From NCBI GenBank assembly GCA_021157415.1, contig JAGGWN010000064.1, positions 1-37,919 of the forward strand: 37,919 bases of DNA, given 5' to 3'. Numbering within the stretch: position 1 is the first letter of the stretch; every line of letters begins with the position of its first letter. Position numbers and translations under genes: made by a program. The notes below the pieces were generated by a model. It had not been told where the DNA came from, did no database searches, and saw only the letters and a list, made by a program, of their open reading frames with translations. This document shows, in pieces, positions 19,144-23,806 of this stretch. This stretch comes from Bacteroidales bacterium. Lineage in GTDB: Bacteria > Bacteroidota > Bacteroidia > Bacteroidales > VadinHA17.

Positions 19144-20805
19144 TTGAAATTTAGTGAAATGGGCCTCTCGCCCGAATTAATGATGGGGATTGAAGCCCTG
19201 GGCTTTATACAACCCACCCCTATCCAGGAAAAAATCATACCCCTTGTTTTTAACTCTCAAAAAGATATCGTTGGTCTGGCACAGACAGGTACGGGAAAAA
19301 CGGCAGCTTTCGGACTCCCGGTAATCGAACAGACAGACCTCAGGGATCAATCGGTACAAACATTGATACTGGCTCCAACACGGGAGTTATGTATTCAGAT
19401 ATCAAAAGATCTGCAAGATTTCTCCCGGCACATACAAGGATTCCGGGTAGTGCCTGTGTATGGAGGTACCAGTATTGACATTCAGAGACGGACCCTAAAA
19501 AAAGGAGCCCATATCATTGCAGCCACTCCCGGCAGGATGCTTGATTTGCTGAACCGTAAAGCAATCCATATCGGAAATATTCGGAATGTGATCCTGGATG
19601 AGGCCGATGAAATGCTGAATATGGGGTTTCGCGATGAGCTGGATGATATTCTTGAAAGAACACCGGCAACCCGCAGGACATTACTGTTTTCTGCCACTAT
19701 GCCATCGGAAGTGGCACGTATTGCCAAAAATTATATGCATCAACCTGAAAAAATTACCATCGGCAAACAAAATGCCGGTGCGGACAACATACGACATATC
19801 CACTATCAGGTACATGCCCGGGATCGTTATCCGGCCTTGAAAAGGATCATGGATATGAACCCCGACATATACGGGATCGTATTCTGCCGTACACGGATGG
19901 AGACGAAGGAGGTCGCCGACAAACTGATGAAAGACGGTTATAACGCCGATGCACTGCATGGAGATCTTTCACAATCCCAGCGTGATTATGTCATGAAGCG
20001 ATTCCGGGACAAATCCCTGCAAATGCTGATAGCTACCGATGTGGCCGCCAGAGGGATTGACGTAAACGAAATATCGCATATCATAAACTATAATCTTCCG
20101 GACGATCCCGATATCTATACCCACCGAAGCGGACGTACAGGAAGAGCCGGAAAATCTGGAACTTCCATTGTGATCACTAACTACAGGGAAAAAGGCCGGT
20201 TATCACAAATTGAAAACATCCTCCATAAGAAATTCGAAAAATTACAAGTGCCTACCGGAGCGGAGATTTGCAAGAAACAACTGTTCCGACTGATCGACCG
20301 CATGGAAAAAGCAGAGGTCGATGAAGAACAGATCGTACCGTTTATGGATACGGTAATGAAAAAACTGGATTGGATGAGCAAGGAAGAGATTATCAAACAT
20401 TTTGTCTCTCTGGAATTCAAACGCTTTCTGGATTATTATAAAGATGCCCGTGATCTGAATGAACCTGATACAGCAAATTTTGCTGACAGAAAAAGAAAAA
20501 ACGGTCATACAGATTATACCCGGTTTTTTATCAATATTGGGAAAAAAGACGGCCTTGAAGCCAGAAATATTATCGGCCTGGTCAATGACCGAACCAGCAA
20601 CCGGAATATTAATATCGGTGCTATTGATATTAAAGGGAGCTTCTCCTTTTTTGAAGTTGATAAGCCCTATGCCGATAAGGTTCTGAGCTCACTTAGAGAC
20701 CATAACTATCTGGGACGTCAGATCATCATAGAAATAGCGGAAAAGGACACCCATAGCGTAAAAAAGAAGAAAAAATTCAAAAAAAGAGCCAGGGCCGGCG
20801 TATAA
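19144..20805 (+). CDS. DEAD-box RNA helicase with DbpA-type RNA-binding domain
   Basis: An ATP-dependent RNA helicase of 553 residues, likely acting in ribosome assembly or cold-related RNA remodelling. Motifs in order: conserved Phe 3 ahead of the Q motif GFIQPTPIQ, Walker A AQTGTGKT (about 46-53), PTREL, TPGR, DEAD (about 152-155), SAT, ARGIDV, and HRSGRTGRAG (about 327-336). A DbpA RNA-binding domain follows at about 457-531, then a very basic tail (KKKKKFKKRARA). The start is a TTG: an in-frame TAG lies 13 bp upstream, AAAGGA is well placed, and the next ATG (19159) would remove the conserved Phe. CsdA/DeaD-like is the best general label. Confidence 0.94.
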   Translation: MKFSEMGLSPELMMGIEALGFIQPTPIQEKIIPLVFNSQKDIVGLAQTGTGKTAAFGLPVIEQTDLRDQSVQTLILAPTRELCIQISKDLQDFSRHIQGFRVVPVYGGTSIDIQRRTLKKGAHIIAATPGRMLDLLNRKAIHIGNIRNVILDEADEMLNMGFRDELDDILERTPATRRTLLFSATMPSEVARIAKNYMHQPEKITIGKQNAGADNIRHIHYQVHARDRYPALKRIMDMNPDIYGIVFCRTRMETKEVADKLMKDGYNADALHGDLSQSQRDYVMKRFRDKSLQMLIATDVAARGIDVNEISHIINYNLPDDPDIYTHRSGRTGRAGKSGTSIVITNYREKGRLSQIENILHKKFEKLQVPTGAEICKKQLFRLIDRMEKAEVDEEQIVPFMDTVMKKLDWMSKEEIIKHFVSLEFKRFLDYYKDARDLNEPDTANFADRKRKNGHTDYTRFFINIGKKDGLEARNIIGLVNDRTSNRNINIGAIDIKGSFSFFEVDKPYADKVLSSLRDHNYLGRQIIIEIAEKDTHSVKKKKKFKKRARAGV

Positions 20806-20819
20806 AGAAATTTCTTTAT
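20802..20819. repeat. Short palindrome over the helicase stop codon
   Basis: An 18-bp perfect palindrome, ATAAAGAAA followed by TTTCTTTAT, overlaps the helicase stop. It is AT-rich and without a T-tract, so it is at best a weak 3' hairpin. Confidence 0.35.
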
Positions 20820-20917
20820 TTCACCTCCTCCCAAATTTTCTTCGCACATTTATCTCTCTCCTCAAGGAGAGGGATAAGGGGAACCCCGATGCTACCCGTC
20901 CGACCGGACGAAACCGT

Positions 20918-20962
20918 TTGTCCGTCCACCGACGGATTGTCTGCCTTTTGGCGGATTAAACC
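20918..20962 (+). repeat. 45-bp double-hairpin repeat, copy A
   Basis: The unit is TTG, stem TCCGTC-N4-GACGGA, TTG, stem TCTGCC-N4-GGCGGA, then TTAAACC. The same layout recurs at 22401-22445 with 35 of 45 positions identical and no gaps. All ten differences are transitions, and two pairs of them preserve base pairing in the stems. Confidence 0.75.
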
Positions 20963-21080
20963 ATTTCTTCTCTTCCGCGTGCCGCTGAGGCCTCAGCCAA
21001 AGACTACGGCCGCCGGTGGAAGCTTGAGCGGAGGCACAAGCGGCTACAAAAAGGCGGAGTAAAAAAACGGATGACGTTGA

Positions 21081-21108
21081 AAAAATAAATATTTAAATAT
21101 TTATTTTT
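21081..21108. repeat. 28-bp perfect AT palindrome
   Basis: The 14-nt arm AAAAATAAATATTT is followed directly by its reverse complement. It lies 42 bp downstream of the psd stop and could act as a bidirectional terminator, since each side ends in a T run, or as a protein-binding or extruding site. Confidence 0.6.
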
Positions 21109-21149
21109 ATATTTATTTAAATACATATATCCTGAAATTCACGGATTTT

Positions 21150-22136
21150 CTATTGCTTCGTAATAGCTTCCCTGAATACAGGTACGGCCATAGCACCGAT
21201 TTTTTCGCCCATATGAACGGCTGTCTCCAGATTATTGGATGTGTTGACGACCAGGTCATGATCGATTTTCAGGATATATGGTTTGAAGAACAGTACGATG
21301 GTTGATCCGCCGAATTTGAAGTAGCCCTTCTCTGCTCCTTTCACCGCCTTGTTTCCATGATAGGTCTGAATAATAGTGCCAACCATCGCTGCACCCACCT
21401 CCGCCATCACCACCGTATCAAAGCGGGTGGTGGCAATCAAGGCATAATCCCGTCTGTTTTCCCACAGCAGTCCGGTCTTTTTTCTTAAAGCAATAGGATT
21501 CACGGAATAGTAATAGCCTTCTACAGGCACTTCAGTCAGAATTTGTCCATCCAATGGGAAATGAAACCGGTGATAGTCGGTAGGTGCCAACCTGATCACG
21601 ATCATACTGCCATGATCATATTTCCCGGCCAGAGAGGAATCTCTCAGGAAGGAAGAGAGATTAAAGCGAATCCCTTTGATGATAAAATCCTGTTTGTCCA
21701 GGTGTGGATATGCCATCAGCTTTCCGTCGGCAGGAGATACGATTACCAACGAATCCCGGTCTATCGGTCTTGCTGCGGGCTTAAGTCGCCGTGTAAAAAA
21801 ATCATTAAAGGTTTTATAATCTTCTTGCTGAAAAATACTGGTATCAATGTGATATTCCCGAATGAATGGTGAAATTTTCTTTTTGGATCGGGGCGCATCC
21901 ATAATCCTGCCATATAGCACGGATACAAATTTTCTTTTCGCCAACGCCTCCAGGGTCAGTTCCCCTACAGGATTCCCATATAACCACAGCAGCCATTTTT
22001 CTCCGGGGACCTGTTCCGTAACAAGATTCCCGCTTTGCCTGTCAACGTATTGTAACGGTTCATACCTGCGAGGAGTATAAGCGATGGCAGCCAGCAAAAC
22101 CACCGCCACAAATAGATATGCCAGGCGCTTGTTCAT
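21150..22136 (-). CDS. psd: Phosphatidylserine decarboxylase, Clostridium-like long type, membrane-anchored
   Basis: Makes phosphatidylethanolamine from phosphatidylserine. About 328 residues from the ATG at 22136, giving an N-terminal membrane helix (LAYLFVAVVLLAAIAY); an ATG at 22199 would add 21 residues. The body matches the long Psd type: GEKWLLWLYGNPVG, FNDFFTRRLKPAARPID, PADGK (catalytic Asp about 137), PTDYHRFHFP (His about 189 and 192), and GYFKFGGST. In GGST the Gly-Ser bond is the self-cleavage site and the Ser (about 278) becomes the pyruvoyl group. No pssA is adjacent. The gene sits alone between two hairpin-rich islands. Confidence 0.92.
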   Translation of the reverse strand: MNKRLAYLFVAVVLLAAIAYTPRRYEPLQYVDRQSGNLVTEQVPGEKWLLWLYGNPVGELTLEALAKRKFVSVLYGRIMDAPRSKKKISPFIREYHIDTSIFQQEDYKTFNDFFTRRLKPAARPIDRDSLVIVSPADGKLMAYPHLDKQDFIIKGIRFNLSSFLRDSSLAGKYDHGSMIVIRLAPTDYHRFHFPLDGQILTEVPVEGYYYSVNPIALRKKTGLLWENRRDYALIATTRFDTVVMAEVGAAMVGTIIQTYHGNKAVKGAEKGYFKFGGSTIVLFFKPYILKIDHDLVVNTSNNLETAVHMGEKIGAMAVPVFREAITKQ

Positions 22137-22438
22137 TTCTGTTTCATAAAAGTCAGAATCGTCACAAAATTGCAACTTTTTCCTGGTTCTGGAAAACATT
22201 ATACGGACTTATTCCCGGATTAGCACTTATTCGTGCTATTTAATAGCCGTGACTTAATGAACTACCCCGTGGTATCACAAGGAATTGTTTGTTTCCGACC
22301 CAGAGGGTCGGGGAAAGAAATCTTTCCGCAGCAACAGATAGGAAATCATCATGGAGTTGCTAAAAATTTTACCGCTAGCGGCGGTTATTCACTCCCCCCC
22401 TTGTCCGCCTACTGGCGGATTGTCCGTCCCCTGACGGA
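22137..22438. other. Hairpin-rich intergenic island between psd and the E2 gene
   Basis: About 300 bp without a gene, apart from a possible 63-bp N-terminal extension of psd. It contains hairpins CCGACCC-AGA-GGGTCGG (22295-22311) and GGAAAG-AAAT-CTTTCC (22312-22327), palindrome CCGCTAGCGG (22372-22381), a run of eight C (22393-22400), and the second double-hairpin repeat. The psd promoter must lie in the right-hand part as seen from psd, but I find no clean -7 box. Confidence 0.55.
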
Positions 22439-22445
22439 TTAAACC
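22401..22445 (+). repeat. 45-bp double-hairpin repeat, copy B
   Basis: Same layout as copy A: TTG, stem TCCGCC-N4-GGCGGA, TTG, stem TCCGTC-N4-GACGGA, TTAAACC. Its right end supplies the TAA stop (22441-22439) of the minus-strand E2 gene, so the repeat overlaps that coding sequence by seven bases. Confidence 0.75.
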
Positions 22446-23806
22446 GACTGATTCACATCAAAATTCTCCAGGTAAGAAGCCACTCTCTCGAGGAATCTCC
22501 CTCCCAGTGCCCCGTCAATAACTCTGTGATCATACGTTATGGAAAGGACAATGATATGCCTGATCGCTATGGCATCCCCATGAAGCGTTTCAACCACAGC
22601 TGGTTTTTTCAGAATAGCGCCTACTCCCAGGATAGCGGCTTCGGGCTGATTGATAATGGGTGTTCCTGTCAGATTCCGGAAAGTTCCAAAATTGGTAATT
22701 GTAAATGTACCTCCCTGTATTTCTGCAGGTTGTAGCTTATTTTGACGAGCTCTGACAGCAAGATCATTCACGGCCTTTGTAAGTCCCGAAAGGTTTTTTT
22801 CATCGGCATCTTTGATAACCGGAACAATAAGATTTCCGTTCGGCAAAGCGGTAGCCATCCCAATATTGATATGTTTTTTACGGAGTATCCGTGTCCCGTC
22901 CACCGAAACATTCACCATGGGGAAATCACGCAAAGCCATGGCTGCCGCATGGATAAAAAGGGGTGTATAAGTGATCTTTTGCCCTGTTCTTTGCAGGAAA
23001 TCGTCCTTGACCTTATCTCTCCACTGTACCATTCCTGTGACATCCGCCTCAATAAAAGAAGTAACATGAGGGGAGGTTTGCTTGGAATGGACCATATGCC
23101 CGGCAATGATTCTGCGTACCCGGTCCATCTCTATAATTTCCACGTCATCCGTTTCCGAAACAACATGACCAGACATTTTTGCCGGCTCCGTTTTTTGGTC
23201 CGGATTCTCTTTAGAGATACCGGCAGATACAGTGGTTCCTTCCTTTTTAACAGATAATGGAGCGACCCCTGATTTGTCTTCTCTGGTCTCTTTCAGCCAT
23301 TTCAATACATCATCTTTGGTAATCCTGCCCTCCAGGCCGGTCCCTTCGATCCGGTCCAGTTCTTCAGGAGATATCTTCTCGGTTTTCGCAATCTTCCGAA
23401 TCAACGGTGATAAAAATTTCCCTGCAGGGGTACTGCTTGCGCTATCCCTCGCTACTTCAACGGTTTCGTCTCTTTTTTGTTCTTGCTCTTTTTCTTCAAG
23501 GATCTCTTCTTTCACTTTCTCTACCTCCACCATAACCTCCGGACGATCCAGTTTTTCTTCCGTCTTATCGTTCTCCAACCACGCCAACACATCACCAACC
23601 TGAGGAACATCCCCTTCCTTAAAGAAGATTTTTGTGATCACTCCATCATCAGGACTCGGTATTTCCGAATCCACCTTATCCGTTGCCACTTCCACTATTG
23701 GTTGATCTTCTTCAACAGGATCCCCTTCATTCACCAACCATTTTGTGATGGTAGCTTCAAGCACTCCTTCTCCCATCGCAGGAAGCATAATATCTAACTT
23801 AGCCAT
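22439..23806 (-). CDS. Dihydrolipoamide acyltransferase (E2) of a 2-oxoacid dehydrogenase complex
   Basis: 455 residues forming the transacylase core of a pyruvate, branched-chain or related 2-oxoacid dehydrogenase. A single N-terminal lipoyl domain has the lipoylated Lys 44 in TDKVDSE. An acidic linker full of Glu and Lys follows, then the E3/E1-binding domain (SPLIRKIAKTEKISPEELD...GRITKDDVL, about 133-170). The catalytic domain (about 225-455) ends with DHRVIDGA, with the active His about 427 and Asp about 431. The sequence alone does not fix the substrate; many branched-chain E2s look like this. E1 and E3 genes are not in the window. The stop codon lies inside a 45-bp repeat. Confidence 0.92.
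   Translation of the reverse strand: MAKLDIMLPAMGEGVLEATITKWLVNEGDPVEEDQPIVEVATDKVDSEIPSPDDGVITKIFFKEGDVPQVGDVLAWLENDKTEEKLDRPEVMVEVEKVKEEILEEKEQEQKRDETVEVARDSASSTPAGKFLSPLIRKIAKTEKISPEELDRIEGTGLEGRITKDDVLKWLKETREDKSGVAPLSVKKEGTTVSAGISKENPDQKTEPAKMSGHVVSETDDVEIIEMDRVRRIIAGHMVHSKQTSPHVTSFIEADVTGMVQWRDKVKDDFLQRTGQKITYTPLFIHAAAMALRDFPMVNVSVDGTRILRKKHINIGMATALPNGNLIVPVIKDADEKNLSGLTKAVNDLAVRARQNKLQPAEIQGGTFTITNFGTFRNLTGTPIINQPEAAILGVGAILKKPAVVETLHGDAIAIRHIIVLSITYDHRVIDGALGGRFLERVASYLENFDVNQSV

Follow-up and report, generated by a model that had tools for sequence, protein, structure and literature searches.

According to the parts of two accounts on which we draw (PMC6006769, PMC7290912), transposons of the IS200/IS605 type insert 3' of a fixed short sequence, do not duplicate it, and bear subterminal hairpins. 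Palindrome-associated transposable elements (PATEs) are described in Haloquadratum (sections of PMC3119063), and one PATE-like element is mentioned for Halanaerobium (in part of PMC7290912). Here, we analysed a stretch of 37,919 nucleotides (the window), contig C56 of a Bacteroidales draft genome in 128 contigs (G000), in which two hairpin repeats bracket psd. We consider it highly likely that these repeats are left-end hairpin arrays of non-autonomous, PATE-like elements of the IS200/IS605 type (Y1/HUH).

As far as the cited sections on PATEs go, the elements resemble PATEs in having no transposase, no terminal inverted repeats and no target duplication, in using a short, fixed, one-sided target, and in having near-terminal palindromes in common with an IS200/IS605-type transposon; unlike PATEs, they reside in a Bacteroidota-type genome, plus contigs titled as other phyla, derive from an insertion sequence (IS) with tnpA alone, and have a left tip made up of arrayed 19-bp hairpins. 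With IS200/IS605 insertion sequences they share the TnpA class, the subterminal hairpins and insertion 3' of a fixed sequence without duplication, whereas the element in the window has no transposase gene and, at 182 bp, is too short to encode one. REP, BIME and REPIN elements, as presented in the cited parts of PMC3116915 and PMC6006769, are likewise short intergenic hairpins tied to a Y1-type enzyme, but the transposase model is a different one and the elements here have two distinct ends. CGTC-tagged palindromic repeats (the relevant part of PMC3733652) are also short hairpins that occur in Bacteroidetes, among other phyla, with no dedicated transposase; they are described there with loops of 4-5 nt, stems of 8-9 bp and AT at the stem foot, as singles or dimers and rarely as clusters, whereas stems of 6 bp and head-to-tail arrays attached to an IS-derived core are found here. 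Elements of this kind are already known; what is unusual is the added series of hairpins at the left tip, for which no report was found in the open-licence literature searched; a literature search for the letters GGGGTATC gave, among the matches listed, titles that look unrelated. An unnamed intergenic repeat is now tied to a parent IS, a target and an insertion rule, and the results suggest that miniature IS200/IS605 elements form a widespread family.

Hairpin units and the element at site B

The initial annotation had placed two 45-bp double hairpins at 20918-20962 (copy A) and 22401-22445 (copy B), both on the + strand, and this is exactly where they lie; read from the aligned copies, 35 of 45 bases are identical and all ten differences are transitions, as described. 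A degenerate pattern made from both copies (up to three mismatches) matched the window twice, at copies A and B, and never in 100 shuffles, and at Rfam gathering scores the window had no match. The repeating unit is 19 bp long (TTGTCCGYC-N4-GRCGGA) and stands in tandem, one to about six per array; of the 45-bp layout, the hairpins are real, and TTAAACC is flank outside this unit. The co-variation reported between the copies stems from two unit types in swapped order: copy A has the T-A type followed by the C-G type and copy B the C-G type followed by the T-A type.

In G000, the pattern TTGTCYGYCNNNNGRCRGATT gave 38 matches with at most one mismatch, some of them as tandem runs, and its reversed form, searched as a control, gave none. 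Exact 19-bp units were searched for in 60 genomes of relatives, G000 included: 22 are present in G000 and 31 in G006, and the remaining 58 genomes have none, with zero matches for the reversed control. The arrays in G000 usually adjoin a conserved core of ~85 bp, and many follow a stretch starting AATGAATCTCCCCGC. In every copy read, the array lies on the left-end side. At L028:1435-1521, the hairpin units of the array are 22 bp long, and no core is recognisable.

Table 1. Features of the two hairpin sites in the window. G003 belongs to the same genus as the window's genome, and G264 to the same order.
Feature	Position	Strand	Remark
Copy A, two hairpin units	20918-20936, 20937-20955	+	no recognisable core
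Complete non-autonomous IS200/IS605-like element, site B, 182 bp	22256..22437	-	missing from G003
Element boundaries, site B	left end 22437, right end 22256	-	ambiguous by 1 nt
Outermost right end AATGAACTACCCCGTGGTATC, minus strand ...GGGGTAGTTCATT	22256..22276	-	sequence read
Accessory hairpin CCGACCC-AGA-GGGTCGG	22295..22311	+	same or similar in L059, L069, L072
Right-end-type hairpin TTTCC...GGAAA	22323..22345	+	second right-end motif, within the element; alignment
Core left-end hairpin ACCGCCGCTAGCGGT	22371..22385	-	type as at the left end of the G264 IS; consensus match
Copy B hairpin unit 1, C-G type	22401..22419	+	pattern match
Copy B hairpin unit 2, T-A type	22420..22438	+	last A = 1-nt junction ambiguity
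Pre-existing target ATTAAA (TTTAAT on minus strand)	22438..22443	-	present in element-free G003

The region around psd in G003 provides an element-free allele of site B, reading GGCTT|ATTAAACC where the window reads GACTT[182 bp]ATTAAACC (the bar marks the junction). The insertion is exact to one base, since one A fits either side, and there is no target duplication; this junction was aligned by eye, the gap of the automatic alignment being less neat and the left flank diverged. The covariance model described below matches site B at 22317-22421 with 104 bits, this copy itself being part of the model, and a terminus of the kind found at the outermost right end also occurs at two transposase-bearing loci, L122 and L190. 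The stop codon TAA that ends the E2 gene (22439-22441) is part of ATTAAA and is identical in G003; copy B had been credited with supplying this stop, but the repeat is not its source because the pre-existing target already holds it.

We searched for empty sites of 14 G000 elements with joined flanks. Besides site B, exact empty sites of the same form exist in G003 for L057 (GATAT|ATTAAAG) and L046 (GCAC|ATTAAAG), so that ATTAAA is present in G003 at three exact empty sites. Three more loci (L062, L054, L048) are empty there with rougher edges, and in the stretch orthologous to L047 more than the element is missing; no contiguous empty site was read in G003 for the remaining 8 of the 14 elements tested. 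L057 is occupied in both G000 and G006, where its target reads ACTAAA and ATTAAA, respectively, and precisely empty in G003, which has ATTAAA. By psd identity G003 is the closer relative (90% vs 86% for G006), and loss or another genome history must therefore be allowed for. The region of copy A, about 20886-21063, has no match in G003, where ~23 bp of other sequence stand in its place and the junction is imprecise; copy A is probably a degenerate element.

The left flank of L056, about 110 bp, occurs many times over in G006, which places some elements within a still longer repeat. At L052, the left flank is a ~75-bp palindromic repeat with GCGCAATAGAG..., of which G006 has many copies and which has similar stretches in L044 and L045. 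At L065, L066, L068 and L071, the right-end hairpin is followed by alternative tails of the type GCCTTCGCGTTCCGCTATGGCGGA, forming a mosaic of modules.

Copy number, reach and base pairing

A covariance model (R1) was built from the core and the first unit of ten copies (alignment A2). A covariance-model search had been proposed as a check in the initial annotation, and R1 does match many genomic copies. With 150 of 1281 candidates scored, G000 has 34 matches at E<=0.1, headed by the ten model-building sequences and with copy A as the weakest. Matches at E<=0.001 come from 7 of the 60 genomes, with 27 copies each in G000 and G006, two in G008 and one each in G009, G023, G031 and G047, and none in the other five same-genus genomes (G001-G005). 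These counts are lower bounds, because first-look candidates were only partly scored and filters were stricter; the genomes are drafts, and G006 is rated 7% contaminated.

Beyond these relatives, the right-end hairpin pattern occurs in at least 119 stretches of species genomes, on contigs titled as many phyla, including Deltaproteobacteria, Desulfobacteria, Bacteroidales, Nitrospirae, Lentisphaeria and Endozoicomonas; several of the distant loci share a genome, and the titles given to metagenome bins may be misleading. Among the matches listed, 119 distant loci hold 120 motifs, and 40 have a left end within 170 bp. ATTAAA lies within 25 nt of 28 of these 40 array-less elements, compared with a background of 0.8% measured on the first 80 of the 119 loci; the hexamer listing was chosen by a pattern containing TAATC, and its agreement there is not independent evidence. 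Among the same listed matches, a related transposase is directly beside only 4 of 120 motifs, and a 19-bp unit was found within 300 nt of none of the 120. The family had looked specific to this lineage, which holds for the array, confined to G000 and G006 in the samples searched, but not for the core, present in contigs titled as many phyla. What is locally new is thus the hairpin array, whereas miniature core elements are common.

The initial annotation also held that the folded form matters. In the array stem, at one pair, this is borne out: the 53 exact units of G000 and G006 have C-G (34) or T-A (19) and never a mixture, although the search pattern permitted mixed pairs at this position, and the pair holds in all 16 distinct unit sequences. 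Among 16 one-mismatch units in G000 it is kept in 14, with one T-G and one C-A, and among 26 aligned first units it is unpaired in 4. Three loop types occur with both the C-G and the T-A unit type. These units are copies rather than independent events, and two old unit types copied often would give this covariation with few events. For the core stems the claim fails, as covariation over the whole structure was not above shuffles; many pairs are broken (15 of 26 at one pair, for example), as in decaying copies, and RNAalifold, applied to ten core copies, returned a covariation term of +0.35, none in favour.

A parent insertion sequence and its transposase

In G264, five identical transposase-bearing copies, each 557 bp counted from TTTAAT, lie in five different flanks, with the layout TTTAAT|CTCTTTGGGTAAATTCCCCGCCGC...tnpA...GGGGAGATTCATT|. 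The ends of this IS align to the consensus of the miniature elements over about 40 nt on the left and 36 nt on the right, and neither alignment score is reached by any of 2000 shuffles. In the miniature elements, the array separates the cleavage site from the core left-end hairpin, in the position that the G264 IS fills with a short CTCTTTGGG-type tip.

Y1 transposase genes (PF01797) gave 127 matches, as a sum of rows, in 59 genomes of the family. Inspection of 52 of these loci with R1, mostly around the stronger matches, showed one clear element match, L122 in G006, and three weak ones (E 0.055-0.24). At L122, the transposase gene is bounded by a AATGAACTACC-hairpin and a hairpin-GGGGAATTAACCC, with a core element beside the gene. 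Of 295 genomes in the order, 10 contain relatives of its protein at E<=1e-20, a threshold at which no cognate transposase was matched in G000, and no clear right end was found at three loci with transposase relatives (L179, L183, L186). The linked proteins of L122 and G264 score 117 and 123 bits with NF033573 (IS200/IS605), whose cut-off is 55, and also match PF01797, and the linked transposase is related to the solved ISHp608 transposase.

Read by eye, the G264 protein has DHVH and a Y---Q motif (YVREQ), motifs as given in the cited part of PMC6006769, and L122 has DYVH in place of the DHVH seen in the relatives read in the same way. Because of this replacement, the L122 transposase is probably inactive, judging from its motif. 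The family is probably dormant in both G000 and G006, since G000 has no close relative of the transposase and the G006 copy is missing the histidine. G000 does encode an intact Y1 transposase at L044:1486-1935, with repeated CTGTCCCTACGGGAC palindromes on its flanks and a Y motif (YIANQETHH) similar to that of subclass 1.2 as outlined in part of PMC6006769.

Alternative origins and a possible transposition route

Classical REP/BIME or REPIN elements with a REP-associated tyrosine transposase (RAYT) as their mover, one of the origins suggested in the initial annotation, would also fit what is seen: intergenic palindromes that are short, exist in tens of copies and are tied to a Y1 transposase. 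A dispersed, REP-like hairpin family and a link to Y1 enzymes are indeed present, but the hairpins are the tail of larger composite elements with two different ends, G264 has several copies of the related IS, all with the same ends, and the linked transposase fits the IS200/IS605 TnpA model, with no match of the L122 or G264 protein to the REP-associated model NF047646 (REP_Tyr_transpos) at E<=0.001. No RAYT gene flanked by the element's own palindromes (TTGTCCGCC hairpins) was found in G000, whose three Y1 loci had no element match; movement by G000's own gene at L044 was rejected, as its flanking palindromes are different ones. Together, this makes a REP/RAYT origin very improbable. It is somewhat less improbable, while still unlikely, that the 19-bp hairpins are a separate, tiny mobile repeat targeting the ends of core elements. 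From Haloquadratum, small mobile repeats are described with PATE palindromes as their insertion sites (in the cited section of PMC3119063), and hairpins with no recognisable core exist at copy A, L014 and L028. However, the apparently solo hairpin at L019 belongs to a core-deleted element whose G006 orthologue retains the core, which speaks against hairpins moving alone and led us to reject this case as an independent element; core and array are also absent together at the exact empty sites, and the spacing from core to first unit is similar in 26 aligned copies, chosen by a model that includes the first unit.

A role as transcription terminators, or as RNA end or processing signals selected at gene ends, would account for the hairpins adjoining stop codons and for one weak terminator-like site, at the core hairpin (22385-22371). 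This site is the only one in 20780-22500, where shuffling leads to an expectation of 2.2, and none coincides with the array hairpins, which leaves the RNA-signal role put forward in the initial annotation without support; moreover, the insert is missing at the orthologous gene end in G003. The TAA inside the target TTTAAT could by itself be the simple reason why repeats occur right after genes. We rejected the terminator role and regard signals of this kind as extremely improbable, even more so than a RAYT origin.

Against the PATE-like reading, which we prefer, it counts that no transposition was observed and that copy A has neither a recognisable core nor a clean empty site. The elements appear to borrow a single-strand transposase from a relative. 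On the minus strand, an element runs from the junction after TTTAAT through one to about six units, the core left-end hairpin, a short spacer and the right-end hairpin, and ends in GGGGAGATTCATT or GGGGTAGTTCATT, with TTCATT last; this position, the subterminal hairpins and the lack of duplication follow the IS200/IS605 rule given above. We infer that a Y1 HUH transposase would act in trans on single-stranded DNA, binding the core hairpins and cutting after TTTAAT and after TTCATT; the excised single strand would then circularise, and the circle would insert 3' of another TTTAAT with no target duplication, the array being carried along.

The array raises the question of how far an HUH transposase tolerates extension of the left end by folded hairpins. 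Tentatively, and with the odds against it, the tandem hairpins might serve as a foldable spacer at the left cleavage site: each 19-nt unit would fold away in single-stranded DNA, and TTTAAT would stay near the transposase-bound core hairpin whatever the number of units. Such a spacer would account for preserved pairing in the array stem beside a drifting loop, and would constitute a single-strand transposon end of variable length and constant folded geometry. The unit junction ACAAT (active strand) resembles the cleavage site, and alternative cuts could therefore add or remove units.

Elsewhere in the window, a perfect 14-bp inverted repeat, AAAAATAAATATTT/AAATATTTATTTTT, lies at 21081-21108, directly downstream of psd, and is mostly retained in G003.
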